Below are positions 2,424 to 11,951 of a DNA stretch of 64,000 bases, piece by piece. How positions within the stretch are numbered: the stretch's first letter is position 1; each line of letters opens with the position of its first letter. The stretch comes from Akkermansia sp. GTDB taxonomy: Bacteria; Verrucomicrobiota; Verrucomicrobiia; Verrucomicrobiales; Akkermansiaceae. The stretch lies in assembly GCA_017546445.1 (NCBI GenBank), contig JAFYWX010000006.1, positions 1 to 64,000 on the forward strand. The letters are read 5' to 3'. Below the pieces are notes generated by a model, which did not search any database, had not been told where the DNA came from, and saw only the letters and a program-made list of their open reading frames with translations. A program made the position numbers and the translations under genes.

Positions 2424-2693
2424 ATGACCCAACGCAACATTACCCGATATACATACGAAACCACGTCGTTCCAGGGATGGCGACTCAGCATCTGCCGCAA
2501 GTGGAACCAGTTCACCAAGTATTTCTCTGACCGCCAGTACGGCAGCGAGGAAGCCGCATTCAAGGCGGCAGTGGAGATGAGAGACCAGATTTTTGATGCG
2601 CTGAAGCAAACGCCCGAAGATCCGCGTGGCGTGTTCGAGCGATTCAAGAATGGCGCAGATATTCCAGAAGAGATTCCTGTAAGCTCCCGATAA
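2424..2693 (+). CDS. Small AP2-like DNA-binding domain protein
   Basis: An 89-residue protein that is nearly all one domain. TTSFQGWRLSICRKWNQFT followed by KYFSDRQYGSEEAAFKAAVE matches the bacterial AP2/ERF-like pattern (GW strand, basic strand, KYFSD.kYGg.eAA helix). Such domains usually occur in homing endonucleases or integrases; here it stands alone with a short acidic tail (ADIPEEIPVSSR). It lies between the pfp terminator and a bidirectional terminator and is convergent with the transglutaminase gene. DNA binding is inferred from the fold; the target is unknown. Confidence 0.65.
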   Translation: MTQRNITRYTYETTSFQGWRLSICRKWNQFTKYFSDRQYGSEEAAFKAAVEMRDQIFDALKQTPEDPRGVFERFKNGADIPEEIPVSSR

Positions 2694-2700
2694 TGGAAAC

Positions 2701-2727
2701 GCCCCCGCCAGCAGAACTGACGGGGGC
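2701..2727. terminator. Shared terminator between convergent genes
   Basis: Stem GCCCCCGCCAG (2701-2711) with CTGACGGGGGC (2717-2727) and one mismatch. It lies between the AP2-like gene and the end of the minus-strand transglutaminase gene. T-runs are short on both sides, so efficiency is uncertain. Confidence 0.55.
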
Positions 2728-2740
2728 CGCTCATCCCAGC

Positions 2741-4783
2741 TCAGGGGATTATGGAATATTTAGCATTCTCTGGCTCCGGCACGTGCTCAGGCTCCCTCCG
2801 GCGGTCCAGCAAGCCGTATTCATTCGCACGCTTCTGGCTTTTCAACGGTGTGGGGTGGGTTTCCTCAAGATCCCACACAAGTTCCTTTGCCACCTCATCA
2901 TCGCAACGAAGGAAGTACTTGAAGGTATGCTCGCTGGTCTTTCCGGCAGCATCATCCATGGCAGCAGCAGCGTGATACCACCTGCCATTCGCCCTGCGCA
3001 CCAGGTTCCAGGCATGAGCGCCCTGGTGGCTTCGGCCATGCACCATGATGCAGGGTATCTTCATGAGAGAAAGCACCGTGTGCAAGGCCTCACTGTACCC
3101 CAGGCTGCCACTTCTGTGGTTATTGATTGCCATCAGCAGGTCAGATGCACCGGGAGTCCAGTCCACCTTCAGCACAAAATCGGTGTACACATCGCGCATC
3201 TTCTGCTTGTCCAGCTTCCAGGCAGTGCCGTACTGATACGCAAGCGCCTGGCACATTTTCAGCACGCTGCGTTCCTCCGGCGTAAGCTTTGCCGCATTTT
3301 CATCATCATCCACCGAGCGCAGGAGGCGGATGTGAGGCCAGTGCTCAAACTGCAGCTTCAGGATGTTCTTTTTCCCATCATACAGGTAATTCCAGTATTT
3401 GATGTAGTGGTAGTAATCTGCAGCCAGGAGCTTCAGCAAGAAAGAGGGGCATGTGTTCCCCACCTGGAATTCCACAACAGGGCCATCCAGATAGTCCTGG
3501 CAGATTCTGAGATTCTCATACAGGTCATCCAGCGAAGCAATGGTTTTGTACTCAGGCTTCTTTCCACGCTTGGTAGAGCGTTTGCCCCCGCCCACAATAC
3601 CAAAGGACTTCGCACTCGAGGCAACCCCGGAACTGACACTGCCGCCCACGGCAGACACCGGCGCGGTGACGGGCTCCACTGTATCCGCCACACGGTCCCC
3701 GTTTTTCTCTGCTTCATCCTGAAAACGCTCCGACAGGATTTTGAAAATCGACTCCTTCTCCCGGGGATTCGTGCATTCCTCCTCGCAGTCCTCAGATTTC
3801 AGGCATGAGCGGAAAGCCTGACGCTTGAAGAGGCTCACGCGGTTAATTTCAGGCGTATGTGGATATATTTCTGCCTCATTCCACTCATGGTCCATGGCCA
3901 TTTCCACATCCGTGAGCAGATAATAATTGAAGCGTTTTACATCCTTACCGCTCTTGGCTATGGGGTCATCCCATGTAACGTCCGTCTGGTACCATTCGCC
4001 ATTCACATCGATGATATTCCAAATATGGTTCATCTTTGGCGTACCCCTCACCGAACGGCAGTCAACCTTCAGCATATGCAGCAGCAGCTGGGTCGAGCTG
4101 GTATAGGCGGCGCATACACCCTTGCCATGCACCACCATATTATAGGTATCATAATACCCCGGCGTATACTTGCAATTATCCACAAGCGCATCATGCACCA
4201 GCCTTACCTTGAGCATATTCGGCATCTCTGGCTGAATATTGCCAACAATCCACTGGGCACAGACCTCAAGCAGGTCGCGCTCCTTATTATTGAGTCGTTC
4301 CTCCATCTCCGGATTACGGAATGCAGCAAAAACCCTGGCATCTGTATCATAGCATACACAGAGCACGCGCTGCTTCTTTTCTTCCACCACAGACGCATGC
4401 AGATAATGCAAGGTATTAACCTTCTTGAGCCACTCATCAAGCTTAGTCTTGTTCACATCGGGGCCCAGGTTGATTGCAAGGCTCGGATGCAGTTTCTTGT
4501 GCATATCATAGACAAGGTCCTCCAGGTCCTCCAGGCTGTTGATGGTCTGGCAGGCACAGGTTCTGTTACGGAACAAACGGCTGGGTTCCTTCTGCATAGG
4601 GCCTATGTACTTGCGGCCTTCTTCCGATGATGGATCCCAGTCCGCCATGGAGATTTGCGATGGAACGCTCCCCGCCGCATAGTGCCCCGTGATGCGACGC
4701 GCCTTCTCCAGTGTATTGGCAACCACCTGACCACCACACACCAGCAGCAATGCCACACATGCAAAAATTCGATACCTATTCAT
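2741..4783 (-). CDS. Exported protein with tandem transglutaminase-like domains, second degenerate
   Basis: A 680-residue protein starting at the ATG at 4783 (a GTG three codons upstream is possible). Residues 1-23 are a signal peptide (RIFACVALLLVCGGQVVA). The first transglutaminase-like core has a full triad: Cys224 in GKGVCAAYTSS, His253 in KMNHIWNI and Asp268 in YQTDVTWDDP. A linker rich in S, G and V (about 370-400) leads to a second copy where the Cys position is Ser (SGSLGYSEAL, about 560), His is kept (GAHAWNLV, about 590) and Asp is Ala (WYHAAAAMDD). The second domain therefore looks catalytically dead. The closest relative in the window is the gene at 7183-9261. Action outside the cytoplasm, as a cysteine protease or acyl transferase, is inferred; the substrate is unknown. 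It has its own promoter at 4901-4929. Confidence 0.78.
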   Translation of the reverse strand: MNRYRIFACVALLLVCGGQVVANTLEKARRITGHYAAGSVPSQISMADWDPSSEEGRKYIGPMQKEPSRLFRNRTCACQTINSLEDLEDLVYDMHKKLHPSLAINLGPDVNKTKLDEWLKKVNTLHYLHASVVEEKKQRVLCVCYDTDARVFAAFRNPEMEERLNNKERDLLEVCAQWIVGNIQPEMPNMLKVRLVHDALVDNCKYTPGYYDTYNMVVHGKGVCAAYTSSTQLLLHMLKVDCRSVRGTPKMNHIWNIIDVNGEWYQTDVTWDDPIAKSGKDVKRFNYYLLTDVEMAMDHEWNEAEIYPHTPEINRVSLFKRQAFRSCLKSEDCEEECTNPREKESIFKILSERFQDEAEKNGDRVADTVEPVTAPVSAVGGSVSSGVASSAKSFGIVGGGKRSTKRGKKPEYKTIASLDDLYENLRICQDYLDGPVVEFQVGNTCPSFLLKLLAADYYHYIKYWNYLYDGKKNILKLQFEHWPHIRLLRSVDDDENAAKLTPEERSVLKMCQALAYQYGTAWKLDKQKMRDVYTDFVLKVDWTPGASDLLMAINNHRSGSLGYSEALHTVLSLMKIPCIMVHGRSHQGAHAWNLVRRANGRWYHAAAAMDDAAGKTSEHTFKYFLRCDDEVAKELVWDLEETHPTPLKSQKRANEYGLLDRRREPEHVPEPENAKYSIIP

Positions 4784-4900
4784 TGTACTCACTTATTTTA
4801 ATCAGCCAGAAATCTGTTACATTCAACCAGATACCAGGAAGAGCTCTGCACCGCCTGGCGCACAGAAAACGAGGCTGCCCGGTCAGAACATTACCCGGTT

Positions 4901-4929
4901 ATTCTAACCGCTTAGCACACACAAGTAAA
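4901..4929 (-). promoter_or_regulatory. Promoter of the tandem-transglutaminase gene
   Basis: Minus strand: TTTACT (4924-4929), 17-nt spacer beginning TG, TAGAAT (4901-4906). The same TTTACTTG...TAGAAT arrangement lies before the first gene of the cluster at 11172-11200, suggesting shared control. The predicted leader is about 110 nt. Confidence 0.5.
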
Positions 4930-4957
4930 GCAAATTGCCCTGCTTCCATGCACCTAT

Positions 4958-7150
4958 TTACTTCTTGCGCCTGGGGGAGACTTGCCGGGCAGCCTTACGC
5001 GGAAGCTTTTTCTTGGTCTCCTTCCGGTCTACGGTGCTATGCACCTTACCCGTACCCCTGGTCGGCTCCACCGGCAGGAAGCCGTGGAATACGGAAAGAA
5101 GACCATTCGAGAGCAGATAACGCCTGTTCTCAAGAGTCAGATTCAAACCGCCGCCCTCGTGCAACAGCTCAGCACACTTGACATGGGGAGAGGGGAGGAT
5201 GGGTTTCTCTGCCGGTTGATACGAATCTGCCGTGTTACAGACAGTGAACAAAGGATTTTCGCGGGTATCTGCAGCCGAAGCCCCCTGCAGCCCAGGCAAG
5301 AGAAGACGAACCCAGCTGGTATACGCGAACTCAGCGGCACGGTGCAGCGGATATATCATCTCTTCATTCGATATCGGAGTTCCTTCATGCCACAGGATAG
5401 CAGCGCAATCAAACAAGGGGACTTCATTATGCAACGCCAGCGATTTTGCTTTCCTTCCCTTCTCAAAAAAGACATCTGCACCAGCCTGCAGCAAAAGACG
5501 CACGCATTCTGCATGGCCGCTGCCGGTATCATAATTCCACCGGACCGAGCCGGGCGCCTCCATCCCGCTGATACAGGCAGCCTGAATCGGAGAAAGCCCC
5601 GTATGGGTATCAACTGCATTGACATCCCAACCGCATTGGATGAGATGCCGCACGCAGGCCGCATTACCATTCTGCGCCGCCTGATGCAGCAATAGGGCAT
5701 CTCTTTCCTGCAGTTCGATTCTGTCCATCAACAAGCGAAGAATCTGCGGCTGGCCGCGCCGCACGGCGGCGCGCATGGGGGTCAGCAATTCTTCCTCTTC
5801 CCCTGTGGAGAATTGGATATCGGCCCGGAGATTCAGCAGAAATTCAACTAGGCTGGTATTACCGCTGGCAATAGCAGCCATGAGTGGAGTTGTCTTTTCC
5901 ACCTCAATCACCCCGGATTCGCCAACCAAATCCTCATAAGGGAAGGCATGCTGCACCGAAACAGACTGAATGACATCCACCTTGACGGAAAAGCTCCGGA
6001 TAATCTGCTCCACCAGTTCCTTATGCCCATGCCGGGCGGCGTAACACAAGGCACGGGCAGGAGCATCCTTTGGTTCATCCAGCAGGGTGATGACATAACG
6101 CAGCAGCGCCATATTACCGCTTGCTGCGGACTGCGCCACAATGTCTCCGCCGCCCTTGCTCTCCGCCTTTATCTGCGCCTGCTGCTGAATAAGGTAGCGG
6201 ACCATCTGCACGTTCCCGGAACGAGCAGCCAGAAGCAGCGCAGTATCACCCAGGCGGCTGCGGGCGTTCACGTTCACCTTATGATTCTCCACCAGGTAGC
6301 AGACAACATCCAGATTCCCGCTCTGGGCCGCTGTCATGAGCGGCGTAAAATGAGCTGTACCTTTGTAATGTGGATTTGCCCCCTCTTTCTCAATCAGCAT
6401 CCGCACCAGCTCCAGATTGCCGCTCCGGGCTGCGCGGAGCAGAATCTCATCAAAACGCCTCGGGCACCCCTGCTTCAGAAGGTAGCGAATCGTTTTATCA
6501 TGCCCGCACATACCCGCATTGTCGATAATGCTTTCGCCGTTGCGCCCAAGCGGTACCTGCCAGCCTACCTTGCCATAAAGGTAACTGAGCGTTACCTCGC
6601 TACCACTCTGAGCAGCCCGGCGCAGAATACCGCAGCAGCCCTTCCATTCAAAACGGCGGCAGGGATTATTATAAATCTGCTGGCACTCTGATGCCAGGAA
6701 ACGCACAACCTCCCTGTTGCCGGCCAGCGCGGCGCGGCATATCAAATCCTCACCCTGGTATAAAACCGCCGTATCAGCGTTCTCGAGAATCAGGAACTGG
6801 AGAGACTCCAGCAAACCGGTTCCGGCAGCATGCCACACCAGCGGTGCACCATTCAACCGCACATCCTCCGGGCCCGCTTGCTTCAGAAACACCGCCGTCA
6901 CCAGCGCGTTGTATTGCTGCTCCAGATAGCTCATATTCTCATGCCTGGGGATAACGATTCTGGCCCGCTCCAGCAATTGCTGCAGGCCTGCAGCATCAAG
7001 CCCCCTGGCCTCAGCACGCAAAAACTGAACATCCCGGGCAGTAAGGCCTGCGGCTTCTGCCATGCTGAACCACAGACAGCATAAAAACAGGCAGGCGCAA
7101 CACCACGCATACAGCATACGGGGCAGGAAATGATATTGAAAGCGATTCAT
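4958..7150 (-). CDS. Exported ankyrin-repeat protein
   Basis: About 730 residues starting at the ATG at 7150; a TTG at 7186 that overlaps the upstream stop would add 12 residues. The N-terminus MNRFQYHFLPRMLYAWCCA followed by a hydrophobic run to SMAEA is a signal peptide. Most of the rest is ankyrin repeats, for example TPLMTAAQSGNLDVVCYLVE and TALLLAARSGNVQMVRYLI, plus AASGNMALLRYVI and ARHGHKELVEQII. The C-terminus is strongly basic (KETKKKLPRKAARQVSPRRKK). Ankyrin repeats bind proteins, so it may scaffold the two flanking transglutaminase-like proteins. No catalytic domain is seen. Confidence 0.8.
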   Translation of the reverse strand: MNRFQYHFLPRMLYAWCCACLFLCCLWFSMAEAAGLTARDVQFLRAEARGLDAAGLQQLLERARIVIPRHENMSYLEQQYNALVTAVFLKQAGPEDVRLNGAPLVWHAAGTGLLESLQFLILENADTAVLYQGEDLICRAALAGNREVVRFLASECQQIYNNPCRRFEWKGCCGILRRAAQSGSEVTLSYLYGKVGWQVPLGRNGESIIDNAGMCGHDKTIRYLLKQGCPRRFDEILLRAARSGNLELVRMLIEKEGANPHYKGTAHFTPLMTAAQSGNLDVVCYLVENHKVNVNARSRLGDTALLLAARSGNVQMVRYLIQQQAQIKAESKGGGDIVAQSAASGNMALLRYVITLLDEPKDAPARALCYAARHGHKELVEQIIRSFSVKVDVIQSVSVQHAFPYEDLVGESGVIEVEKTTPLMAAIASGNTSLVEFLLNLRADIQFSTGEEEELLTPMRAAVRRGQPQILRLLMDRIELQERDALLLHQAAQNGNAACVRHLIQCGWDVNAVDTHTGLSPIQAACISGMEAPGSVRWNYDTGSGHAECVRLLLQAGADVFFEKGRKAKSLALHNEVPLFDCAAILWHEGTPISNEEMIYPLHRAAEFAYTSWVRLLLPGLQGASAADTRENPLFTVCNTADSYQPAEKPILPSPHVKCAELLHEGGGLNLTLENRRYLLSNGLLSVFHGFLPVEPTRGTGKVHSTVDRKETKKKLPRKAARQVSPRRKK

Positions 7151-7182
7151 ACGGTTGACAACAATAAGGCTTACCTGAATTT

Positions 7183-9261
7183 TCAAGATTCACAGACACT
7201 GGACCTCAGCTCCTCGAATAACTTCTGCCGGGCCTCCAGTTCATCAGATGATGGAGTCGGCGGAAGCCCCTCAGGATTCCATATATGATCTACCCGTATC
7301 TGGTCATCACATAAATAAAGATACATACCCTTTATCTGGTAACAACACGGGTTAACCAGCTTGCCGGCACAGGTGGGATAATAGACGGAATGAAGCCAAT
7401 CCTTTGCATTAAGCTGAGAAAGCACCCAGGTTTCCTCTCGGCACTCCACACGGCCGAAAACCATCCTGGTCGGCACGTCGCACGCATTAAGCAGAACATA
7501 CGCCAACTGGGCCCGCCCAAATGAGTTGTAATAACGCACCCCCTGCTCCGCCTGCTTCAGCGGATTAGTAATCACCCGGGGTTTCAGCCCCTTGGGGCAA
7601 TGGCGCATCACGCAAGCTATTTTCTTCTCATTGGAGGAAATGCGAGACAAGCCGGCCGCACGCTTAGCCAACTTGGCAAGCAGCTCCTGCTGGGCGGCAT
7701 CCAGCTTGCTTGCCAGTGAACGATTCCGGAGGGCTGCCAGGAAGAGCTGGTGCTCCCAATACCTGATATCGATGGATATGGATTTCTGTTCCGCATCGTA
7801 CACAACGTTGAATTTCTCCGCGTATTCATTGATATCGGATAGACCGACAATTTCTCTCATTCGCCAATCCTCCACCTCCTCAGCGCATTGGAAATGAAGC
7901 CGGGGCCCAGCCAGACACGACACATAGTCCTCCAGCATCTTGTTGAACTCCCTGAAATTCCGGATTTTCTGTTCGGCGGCATTGACTTTCCCGGGTTTTG
8001 CAGGCATGCGGCCAACGAGGCGCGTCACACGAGCCTTGTCAAATACCAGCTTGGTGGGATTCTGCACGTCCTTCACCGGGTCCCGCTTCGCATCCAGCAG
8101 ATATGCCTTCTCAATTTCTTTATCGCGGTTCAGCTCCACCCCGAGCATCTGGGCAACCATATCTGCGCGTCCGCCCACGCTTTTGGCATAAGTATTATAC
8201 AGAGATGGTGCAATGTGCTCATCCTCACGCGGCAAGGTATAGCCGGACGCCGCCGCAACACAGCCATGCTTCGTGTGGTGGCGCATATGAAAATGCCGGG
8301 AATTGACCTGCGGCGTTTCAGGATACAGCTCCGGATTCACCCAATCGTGGTCAGAAGCAATCTCGACATCGGTCAGCAGATAATAGTTGTATGTGCGCAG
8401 CGGAGCCGCCGCAACGGGGTCATCCCAGCTGATATCGAGGTGGTACCATTCATCATCAATTTCCACCATATTCCACACATGATTCATCTCCGGCGTACCG
8501 AAGACCATGCGGCAATCTATCTTCAGCATGTGTAGTAACAGCTGCGCAGTGCGCGAATAGGTAACACAAGAGCCCTGCCCCTCCTGCAGCATCGCAAGCG
8601 TATCATGCTTTTTCGGGCAGTAGACACTGGTATCGATGATGACATCGTGCACCTTCTGCAATTTCTGGCAATTCGGCATTCCGATGCTGATATTCCCGCT
8701 AATCCACCAGGCACACATTTCCAGAACAGCCCGTTCCTTTTTCTCGAGTACCTTCCGCATAGCATCATTGCGGAAGGCTGCAAGGATACGGGCTTCTGGC
8801 GTGTAGGCTACTTTCAGTGTACATTCGCCATTCCTGCTCTCCACACTAATCAACCCGTACAGACTTGTATTGATTTTCCGCACCCACTGCCGCACTGAAT
8901 CCAGAGTCACACAGGGAGCCAGTTTCAGCGTATCCTTTTCCTGCAGATTGTACGCCATGGCACTAACCCAGCGTTCCAGGTCCTCCTGGGTAGCAACCAT
9001 CTGCGGACGCCCAGGCTCTGCGCGAAACCACTTACCAGGAGCACAGCAAACCGGGCCTGAATAGGTGCTGTGCCTTTCATCCAGCGAACTCCACCTGGGC
9101 GTATCATCATTGCTGGTCTTCAGCGGCAGATAGCCCGTTATCCTGCGGGCCTTATCCAGCATAGAGTCTGCCGCCACTGCCACCTGCCCCACCAGCAGGC
9201 AAAATGACAAGGCCACAATGACTCGATGTACAACCATTCGCAAGCCGGACATATCAGGCAT
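7183..9261 (-). CDS. Exported protein with tandem transglutaminase-like domains, paralogue of 2741-4783
   Basis: 692 residues with an N-terminal signal peptide (VVHRVIVALSFCLLVGQVAVA). After it, LDKARRITGYL mirrors the LEKARRITGHY of the paralogue. The first core keeps Cys (GQGSCVTYSRTAQ), His (EMNHVWNMV) and Asp (WYHLDISWDDP). In the second copy all three positions are altered: Tyr for Cys (RYYNSFGRAQL), Thr for His (REETWVLSQL) and Tyr for Asp. It follows the 630-aa gene by 8 nt and precedes the ankyrin gene closely, so the three form an operon. Gene duplication followed by separate decay of the second domain is inferred. Confidence 0.78.
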   Translation of the reverse strand: MPDMSGLRMVVHRVIVALSFCLLVGQVAVAADSMLDKARRITGYLPLKTSNDDTPRWSSLDERHSTYSGPVCCAPGKWFRAEPGRPQMVATQEDLERWVSAMAYNLQEKDTLKLAPCVTLDSVRQWVRKINTSLYGLISVESRNGECTLKVAYTPEARILAAFRNDAMRKVLEKKERAVLEMCAWWISGNISIGMPNCQKLQKVHDVIIDTSVYCPKKHDTLAMLQEGQGSCVTYSRTAQLLLHMLKIDCRMVFGTPEMNHVWNMVEIDDEWYHLDISWDDPVAAAPLRTYNYYLLTDVEIASDHDWVNPELYPETPQVNSRHFHMRHHTKHGCVAAASGYTLPREDEHIAPSLYNTYAKSVGGRADMVAQMLGVELNRDKEIEKAYLLDAKRDPVKDVQNPTKLVFDKARVTRLVGRMPAKPGKVNAAEQKIRNFREFNKMLEDYVSCLAGPRLHFQCAEEVEDWRMREIVGLSDINEYAEKFNVVYDAEQKSISIDIRYWEHQLFLAALRNRSLASKLDAAQQELLAKLAKRAAGLSRISSNEKKIACVMRHCPKGLKPRVITNPLKQAEQGVRYYNSFGRAQLAYVLLNACDVPTRMVFGRVECREETWVLSQLNAKDWLHSVYYPTCAGKLVNPCCYQIKGMYLYLCDDQIRVDHIWNPEGLPPTPSSDELEARQKLFEELRSSVCES

Positions 9262-9269
9262 AATCTATA

Positions 9270-11162
9270 TTATTCCGCCTTCTTATCTTCCATTGCCGGA
9301 GTAATCATCAACAGGCAGTGAATCTCATCATTATCCGTGCATAATGCACCCTCAACACGGTCAACATACCCAGAGGTGAGACTGATACCCCCACCCAGTT
9401 CAGCCGCCAGGTCACGCTGGGATTCAGAGCCCCCACCAGCAGGCATCTCCATCACACGGGCCAGCGCGGGCATATTGATACTGAATACACACCCACCTGC
9501 AATCGGGATACGGTCAGCAGAAGGTTCAGGCATGGAACCGCCGCACGCCATGGTAACCACATTCCCTTCACCACCAATCACAGGAAGAGAGGGAATTTCG
9601 GGGCTCAGGGAGCGCAATCCGCTCCGAAGCCTTTCCCGGATTTCCGGCATAGCGGCAGCATCTGCCACCTCTCCGCTCATAAAAATGCCGTCAGGAGCAC
9701 CTGCTGCAGCGTCACCAGCGCGCACAATCCATGCAGTACCACCCCGCGGCGTGGCGTTCAAAAGCTGAAAGCCGCGGAATAAATCATCACTCGCAGGTCT
9801 CCGCAGCAAAAACGCAGGAAGCGTTGAGGCCAGGCTCTCTTCCTCTCCGGGGCTGAGTGACAGACTGTATCCCTTCCGCACCTTTTCCACTTCATCAAGG
9901 ATTTCAGCGGGCTTCATTTCCACCCCACCCTTCCATGGAGTAGTTTCGAAATACACTGCAGTGTCCTGACGTGCAGCGTACTCCGGGAATCGTAAATCAC
10001 CGGCAGCAAAACACTGCCCTGCAGCCGACCCCGACATGTAAATCCGTATGGGCTTATCCCCCCACACCATCACGCGCTCTGCGCCCTGCTGGCGCGGCAG
10101 AAGCGTCTCCGTCTTCTGAACGAGCGAACGCACAGCAGCTGCAGCCTGTGCATATGTCTCACTCTCCGGCGCCAGGCGGGAGAAGATTTTCTCCATGAAA
10201 AAAGCAGCATTCAGGTACTCATGCAAATTCAGTTCCTCTCGCAGCCTGACCACCGCCGGGCTGCTATATCCCAGCGCCCATATCCCGTGCCGTATGCGGG
10301 AATCGAAAGCAGTCATCAGCGGCGCCGCTAAAACTGAATCAGATACCCTGGCTGGAATCTTCACCTCATTCAGATTACTACAGACTACCAGCAGCAGCTT
10401 ATTACCCACAATGCGTGTTACCACATACAGGCGGGCCTTCTCAAGATTCCGCATGATGGCAGTCTCCTGCTCCGGGGTAAGTTCTGCCATGGATAAATCA
10501 AGCCTGTCCCCGCGCACACAGAAACCACTCCAGCCACTGCGCACTGTCATTTCTATCGGATTATCCGTACTCAGGGGCAGCATCAGAGGCAGAACAGAAA
10601 GCTGCCGCAGCATCGATTCACCCCCGGGCTTTGCCGACACCACCATATACAAGGGTGCCAGATGAAAATCCTGCGTTGCCTGCACAAGAATTTCGCCATC
10701 ATTGAACTGCTGCTCCCGCTCCACTGCTACAATGGCACGGGCTGCCGCATCATTCGCCTGCATCCTCCAATTCTCACCCACCAGGCCAAGGTTTGACCTC
10801 AGCACCTGAAGCAATGGTTGCAAACGCTGCATATCCTGCACGCAGCGGGGCGATACGCCCACGGCAATACTATCCAGCTCATCCACCAGCGCACCTGCCA
10901 GCTCTACCCCTGTAAATTCCTCTTTCTGTGCTGACACACTGGACATGAGTTTATCTAGCTGAGCAAGGGCAAAAAAAGAATCTGTATCTGCAGGCAGCAG
11001 ACCAAGAGCCGGCACGCACCGCGCGCGGGCTTTTGGCGCAAGCGCAGCGGCGGGTTCTGCCAGCATACCATGAAGCTCATTCAGCACCCCCGGGGCATCC
11101 TGAGCATACAGCGCGGGCAACAAACAAGAAAGTACCAGGGTAAACAGGGATGACTTCTTCAT
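9270..11162 (-). CDS. Exported protein of unknown function, first gene of the transglutaminase/ankyrin operon
   Basis: 630 residues with a signal peptide (KKSSLFTLVLSCLLPALYAQ). The mature part opens with CVPALGLLPADTDSFFALAQL, whose LLPADTDS element recalls DUF3352-like proteins, but I do not claim membership. It is mixed alpha/beta with no catalytic motif I recognise and no further membrane segment. A glycine-rich stretch (MPAGGGSESQRDLAAELGGG) lies near the C-terminus. It heads a minus-strand operon with the transglutaminase-like and ankyrin proteins (gaps of 8 nt and then close or overlapping). A promoter lies directly upstream, leaving almost no leader. Confidence 0.7.
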   Translation of the reverse strand: MKKSSLFTLVLSCLLPALYAQDAPGVLNELHGMLAEPAAALAPKARARCVPALGLLPADTDSFFALAQLDKLMSSVSAQKEEFTGVELAGALVDELDSIAVGVSPRCVQDMQRLQPLLQVLRSNLGLVGENWRMQANDAAARAIVAVEREQQFNDGEILVQATQDFHLAPLYMVVSAKPGGESMLRQLSVLPLMLPLSTDNPIEMTVRSGWSGFCVRGDRLDLSMAELTPEQETAIMRNLEKARLYVVTRIVGNKLLLVVCSNLNEVKIPARVSDSVLAAPLMTAFDSRIRHGIWALGYSSPAVVRLREELNLHEYLNAAFFMEKIFSRLAPESETYAQAAAAVRSLVQKTETLLPRQQGAERVMVWGDKPIRIYMSGSAAGQCFAAGDLRFPEYAARQDTAVYFETTPWKGGVEMKPAEILDEVEKVRKGYSLSLSPGEEESLASTLPAFLLRRPASDDLFRGFQLLNATPRGGTAWIVRAGDAAAGAPDGIFMSGEVADAAAMPEIRERLRSGLRSLSPEIPSLPVIGGEGNVVTMACGGSMPEPSADRIPIAGGCVFSINMPALARVMEMPAGGGSESQRDLAAELGGGISLTSGYVDRVEGALCTDNDEIHCLLMITPAMEDKKAE

Positions 11163-11238: not shown

Positions 11239-11266
11239 GCCGTTCTCCCTGTTCCGGGAAAACGGC
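11239..11266 (-). terminator. Probable terminator of adk
   Basis: On the minus strand, GCCGTT (11261-11266) pairs with AACGGC (11239-11244), followed by CCTCTTTG. The T-run is short, so this is a modest terminator at best. It separates adk from the exported-protein operon. Confidence 0.35.
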
Positions 11267-11297: not shown

Positions 11298-11951
11298 TTA
11301 CTTCTCGCAGTAGGTGCGCACGGCGGCGGCGATGCGGGCGGAAACAGCCTCGGGCTCGCCTTCCTCGGTCACGTCAATCTGCACAACCTTACCCTGGGCG
11401 CGGTAGTGCTCCACCACGGGCACGGTCAGAGTCTCGTAGTCCTTACGACGTTTGGCGAAAGCCTCGGGGTTGTCGTCGGAGCGCACAATCATGGCGCCGC
11501 CGCACTTCGGGCAGATTTCCTCGCCGTTGCGGGTGGTCTCGCCGCAGGCGGGGCAAGCCTTGCGCTTCATCATGCGGGCTTCGATGAGCTCAGCAGACAC
11601 GTTGAGGTACACCACGATATCCACACCCAGGCCCATGGAGGACAGGTTGGCATCCAGAGTCTCAGCCTGGGAAACGGTGCGGGGATAGCCGTCGAGAAGG
11701 CAGCCGCACTCCTGGTTCTCACCCAGCCACTTGGCAACGATACCGTTCACCACTTCATCGGGCACGAACATGGCAGCATCCATGTACTTCTTGGCCTCCA
11801 TGCCCAGCTCAGAGCCAGCGGCAATCTCAGCACGCAGCAGAGCGCCGGTGCTCAGGGGCTTCAGACCATAGGTCTCAGAGAGGAAAGAGGACTGTGTGCC
11901 CTTGCCGGAAGCGGGGGCGCCTACAAGTACGAATCGCTTGAGCGTTTTCAT
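11298..11951 (-). CDS. adk: Adenylate kinase
   Basis: 217 residues. It interconverts ATP+AMP and 2 ADP in the cytoplasm. The P-loop is GAPASGKGTQ (11-20), followed by the AMP-binding TGALLRAEI and DGYPRT motifs. The LID carries four cysteines (CPACGETTRNGEEICPKCGG), the zinc-binding LID type common in Gram-positives but also found elsewhere. RRKDYETLTVPVVEHY is the usual late arginine motif. It has its own promoter (11998-12027), no Shine-Dalgarno, and is divergent from nothing coding upstream; lpxK follows on the same strand upstream by 128 nt. Confidence 0.95.
   Translation of the reverse strand: MKTLKRFVLVGAPASGKGTQSSFLSETYGLKPLSTGALLRAEIAAGSELGMEAKKYMDAAMFVPDEVVNGIVAKWLGENQECGCLLDGYPRTVSQAETLDANLSSMGLGVDIVVYLNVSAELIEARMMKRKACPACGETTRNGEEICPKCGGAMIVRSDDNPEAFAKRRKDYETLTVPVVEHYRAQGKVVQIDVTEEGEPEAVSARIAAAVRTYCEK

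Follow-up and report, generated by a model that had tools for sequence, protein, structure and literature searches.

A candidate exported unit in an Akkermansiaceae genus: two-module transglutaminase-like proteins next to an orphan protein family

The transglutaminase-like (TG) superfamily (PF01841) holds many proteases in bacteria; LapG, for example, is a periplasmic thiol protease with a TG-like fold. The closest solved relative of the proteins described below is a bacterial TG-like protein, TglA from S. pyogenes (PDB 9crn), which at 379 residues is about half as long as they are, and is therefore without a second module. A third reference is the MAG6410 family of transglutaminase-related lipoproteins (NF045980). 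Ankyrin-repeat proteins, which also have a representative at the locus, are defined by a generic repeat.

The locus studied here encodes two TG proteins, TGa and TGb. TglA is the best match to their N-terminal (N) module (profile 6.4e-11, Foldseek 1.7e-5, Z 10.8). The TG core also matches the MAG6410 family, with 113.9 bits for TGb and 61.7 for TGa, far from the 450 bits that define membership of NF045980; that family is named for lipoproteins, whereas neither window protein shows a clear lipobox. The structural match between LapG and the TGb model is weak, since a Z of about 7 is typical of common folds and not specific.

The window, i.e. the whole stretch of 64,000 nucleotides that was analysed, belongs to a 2.6-Mb draft genome (G000) of an Akkermansiaceae genus; among named records, the closest one that carries this locus is Akkermansiaceae MAG SIG71. 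Four adjacent ORFs, all on the minus strand, are flanked by adk (11298-11951) on one side and by a small convergent ORF next to pfp on the other. The features are as follows:

11239-11266, minus strand: terminator-like hairpin between adk and P630
11172-11200, minus strand: promoter of P630, sigma-70 type (TTTACT-17-TAGAAT)
9270-11162, minus strand: P630, ORF of 630 aa with a signal-like N terminus (MKKSSLFTLVLSCLLPALYAQ); core partner
7183-9261, minus strand: TGa, two-module transglutaminase-like protein of 692 aa with a signal-like N terminus (Pfam Transglut_core 3.1e-13; orthologues)
8323-8991, minus strand: N module of TGa, predicted to be catalytic from its triad (Cys232, His261, Asp276; alignments)
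7222-7962, minus strand: C-terminal (C) module of TGa, of the same family (alignments, tree), with the nucleophile lost (Gly) and Glu at the His position
4958-7186, minus strand: ANK, ankyrin-repeat protein with a signal-like N terminus, 742 aa from TTG 7186 or 730 aa from ATG 7150 (Pfam Ank_2 1.8e-52); accessory
4901-4929, minus strand: promoter of TGb, sigma-70 type (TTTACT-17-TAGAAT)
2741-4792, minus strand: TGb, two-module protein with a signal-like N terminus, 683 aa from GTG or 680 aa from ATG 4783 (Pfam Transglut_core 1.1e-11; AF2 model with two TG-like units; orthologues)
3863-4552, minus strand: N module of TGb, predicted to be catalytic from its triad (Cys227, His256, Asp271, numbered from GTG; alignments; structural match to TglA 9crn)
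2828-3544, minus strand: C module of TGb, a pseudoenzyme with Gly at the Cys position and Ala at the Asp position (alignments)
2701-2727, minus strand: terminator-like hairpin just after TGb

For ANK, the ATG at 7150 is a likelier start than the TTG (7186), and for TGb the ATG at 4783 is likelier than the GTG (4792). The N termini of all four proteins carry a hydrophobic stretch which, judged by eye, is signal-like, and from which the four proteins are predicted to be exported. The original prediction of four neighbouring minus-strand genes with exported products is thus confirmed for the ORFs, and is consistent with these N termini for export. The search of the region for RNA families found none. 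An ORF of 89 aa between the locus and pfp (window 2424-2693, plus strand) is present at the same place in other genomes with 88-93% identity, and resembles AP2 weakly (Pfam AP2, E 0.025, short of the cut-off).

Both transcript starts had been predicted to carry one shared and unusual promoter motif. The motif is indeed shared: TTTACTTG-N15-TAGAAT occurs in exact copies at 11200-11172, before P630, and at 4929-4901, before TGb. It is not unusual, since it corresponds to ordinary sigma-70 -35 and -10 boxes. In the window, TT-type -35 boxes precede TAGAAT or TATAAT at 17 bp in 7/10 cases, pfp included; this layout is common enough for the two promoters to be considered normal. The layout is also conserved before P630 orthologues, the upstream region in five other genomes showing TTTACA-17-TAGAAT or a close variant. 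The presence of two promoters probably means two transcription units, P630-TGa-ANK and TGb, with the terminator-like hairpins as their outer limits. The proposal of a single operon therefore holds for the adjacency of the genes on one strand, but probably not for their transcription as one unit.

TGa and TGb score 50.4 and 45.4 bits against Pfam PF01841 Transglut_core, for which the gathering cut-off is 23, which makes them members of the superfamily. They are paralogues (E 4.5e-81) and lie one on each side of ANK, as was first noted. The repeat is also internal, as the TGb C module and the TGa N module match each other with an E value of 9e-15. The AF2 model of TGb, built from 4 sequences, is of middling quality (pLDDT 55) and runs twice through a similar succession of helices and strands; in a structure search, its C half gives weak TG-superfamily matches only. 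Matches to ribosomal protein S8 (TGb residues 82-147) and to arylamine N-acetyltransferase (C module), with Z of 6-8, were taken as common arrangements. The host genome has a third TG paralogue, a single-module protein of 370 aa (L070 7608-8720, G000:C2), and genes of this single-module type are frequent across the genus. In phage records, matches to the TG core were distant only.

The two modules were compared in an alignment of 15 TG genes from 11 genomes, one of the genes being in two pieces at contig ends. In the N module, the Cys-His-Asp triad is present in 14/15 genes, including TGa and TGb of the window, in the contexts GxGxC, NHxWN and DxxW. The exception is a TGa-like gene of G105 (L058 2277-4367), which has a Ser (AGC) for the catalytic Cys (TGT in the window). 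It adjoins a TGb-like copy with an intact triad, so that this genome has an active/dead pair of genes in addition to active/dead modules. In the C module, the Cys is replaced in 15/15 genes, by Gly and once by Ala; the His position often holds Gln, Glu or Arg, and the Asp is retained in about half of the 15 genes. The C modules therefore cannot act as catalysts by the usual mechanism.

In the tree of the modules, the N modules form one clade and the C modules another (support 100/99 and 100/100), which indicates that one internal duplication predates the spread of the TG genes. By parsimony, the nucleophile of the C module would have been lost once and early. The C module is under purifying selection as strong as that on the N module in the G126/G109 pair, the one close pair for which dN/dS was calculated: the ratio is 0.083 in both modules, and 0.22 in the linker. 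In the more distant TGa/G105 pair, identity is lower in the C module (52%) than in the N module (73%).

P630 of the window has no match in profile searches of Pfam, NCBIfam and PDB other than hits at chance level, and no Pfam model scores above cut-off for 10 P630 orthologues and 15 wider relatives. The 10 orthologues align over their full length. The AF2 model, based on 2 sequences, has a pLDDT of 35 and gives no usable fold. A family profile searched against 288 genomes of the phylum is positive in 16/23 genomes of the same genus and in 0/265 sampled genomes from other genera. The family is thus uncharacterised and, as far as profiles can tell, confined to this genus among the sampled genomes. 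Plasmids gave no P630 match and the viral contigs scanned no relatives; together with phage records that hold only distant TG-core matches, there is no sign of a mobile origin.

Most genomes of the genus encode distant relatives of P630 (about 620-820 aa), often immediately after adk, and other members of the genus have P630-like genes next to adk with no TG gene. In G149, three P630-like genes are in tandem directly behind adk (L099 6220-12705). The position of adk itself differs within the genus: G028 and G134 (L102, L103) have it among the ribosomal-protein/secY genes, and the part of the genus that includes the window has it at another site, often next to P630-like genes. Two genomes with good assemblies, G063 and G047 (L119 4283-9163 and L120 1038-5962), have as nearest P630 relative a lipoprotein-like protein whose gene immediately follows that of a penicillin-binding protein (identified with Pfam in G063); these relatives share only weak homology with P630, about 1e-8 across 150 residues.

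The survey of co-occurrence covered 76 genomes of the host genus, G000 included. P630 orthologues were taken at E 1e-93 or better, which leaves a wide gap to the best paralogue (6e-29). An orthologue is present in 11/76 genomes and a two-module TG gene in those same 11, where the two are neighbours in every case (in G125 the locus is divided over contig ends). Close P630 orthologues are never found without TG in this survey. Two TG genes are present in G000, G105, G124 and G125 and one in the other 7 genomes; the copies differ in number and order, yet stay behind P630. The flanks of the locus vary: adk is upstream in most genomes, and an ilvH-like gene in G126, where the pair is kept. In G130, an in-frame TAG interrupts the P630 orthologue (L066 10366-12204) and the adjoining TG gene is intact, which reflects either a pseudogene or an assembly error. 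If the TAG is real, P630 may not be strictly needed in this organism.

The original prediction was to be judged by the co-occurrence of all four families, and the outcome is divided: P630 and TG are neighbours in 11/11 genomes, but all four families are together in only 2/11 genomes, the window (G000) and G105, where the order is P630-TGb-TGa-ANK. A close ANK orthologue occurs only in G105, at the same locus, and in G124, on another contig; no ANK gene was found at the locus in 9/11 genomes carrying P630 and TG. ANK is therefore not core but accessory, which leaves its proposed role as a scaffold unsupported. ANK and the second TG copy look like optional additions to the P630-TG pair. ANK is recognised by its repeats (Ank_2 1.8e-52, in 6 stretches); matches to Legionella Ank and PADLOC models involve the repeats only, far below NCBIfam cut-offs, and P630, TGa and TGb match none of the PADLOC defence models.

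A first look across the genus gave 2 to about 150 ankyrin candidates per genome. Most larger finished genomes have few and most drafts have many, which hints that ankyrin genes have expanded in some members of the genus. At L071 5266-7218 (G142) and L100 2921-6604 (G114), a TG or P630-like gene has an ankyrin gene as its neighbour; ankyrin genes being abundant, this may be due to chance. The idea that TG genes generally lie beside ankyrin genes finds no support in the single-module TG loci that were inspected, most of them with about 1.5 kb of flank, where one neighbour pair (L071) was seen.

The adjacency of P630 and TG in 11/11 genomes supports a functional unit. It is strong evidence, but the observations are not independent, because the 11 genomes may trace to one shared acquisition of TG, a single origin being compatible with the adk tree. 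On this basis, P630 and TG could be neighbours with no joint function: the P630-adk arrangement would be old, as suggested by the many genomes in which adk is followed by a P630-like gene without TG, and TG would have landed behind P630 in one subclade, so that the 11 adjacencies do not count as 11 events. However, the pair is kept in G126 even without adk in front of it, TG genes stay behind P630 whatever their number and order, and the close orthologues always come with TG. Mere proximity is for these reasons rather unlikely. The alternative that the locus was first thought to represent, a periplasmic complex in which ANK organises two true transglutaminases that cross-link proteins, is very unlikely. 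The four genes are adjacent, the same families are together in G105, and the triads of both window N modules are intact; against this, ANK is not found at the locus in 9/11 genomes and is unlinked in G124, each TG protein has one dead module, and the closest solved relative is a TG-like protein from bacteria, in which the superfamily is rich in proteases. Nothing at the locus separates cross-linking from proteolysis or deamidation, which leaves the cross-linking set unsupported.

A secreted cysteine peptidase of TG fold, acting on host or neighbour proteins outside the cell with P630 as a surface anchor or chaperone, would be in keeping with the signal-like N termini, with the habitat of relatives of this lineage, which live in animal guts, and with LapG-type periplasmic cysteine proteases turning up as weak structural matches (Z about 7). 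Nevertheless, a Z below 8 lacks specificity, no secretion signal was identified beyond the N terminus, and P630 is without a recognisable anchor. This explanation is rather unlikely as well. The lipoprotein-like relatives of P630 downstream of a penicillin-binding protein gene fit an envelope role. They also speak for a further alternative, a role in peptidoglycan or envelope assembly, in which the TG module would hydrolyse or transfer wall peptides and P630 would be an accessory factor of wall synthesis. This is improbable: the homology is weak (about 1e-8, 150 residues), G063 and G047 may share a single ancestral arrangement, and no wall-binding domain was found.

The reading that we prefer, and which we hold to be evenly poised, is that of a lineage-specific exported unit whose core consists of P630 and a two-module enzyme of TG fold. 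Somewhat more tentatively, the locus may encode an undescribed exported protein-processing unit, where the dead TG module has been turned into a conserved regulatory or substrate-binding domain that works with an orphan, genus-only family. In such a unit, the N module would be a thiol enzyme (peptidase, amidase or transamidase) acting outside the cytoplasm on an envelope or extracellular protein, the C module would bind the substrate or a partner, and P630 would be the fixed partner of TG, as its anchor, substrate or regulator. The two sigma-70 promoters would probably drive P630-TGa-ANK and TGb separately.

Bacteria of the Akkermansia type are prominent in the gut, and few of their envelope systems have been characterised. 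The locus gives a handle on a protein family that is absent from the searched databases, and the combination of an active-plus-dead enzyme with a constant orphan partner offers a compact and testable case of a bacterial pseudoenzyme.

What the window proteins share with the TG superfamily (PF01841) is the profile match and the Cys-His-Asp triad of their N modules. They differ from it in having two modules, the second without a nucleophile, in their predicted export, and in being paired with P630. A search of the literature found no description of such a system. The TG superfamily itself is known; the tandem of an active and a dead TG module, predicted to be exported and with a constant orphan partner, is new.
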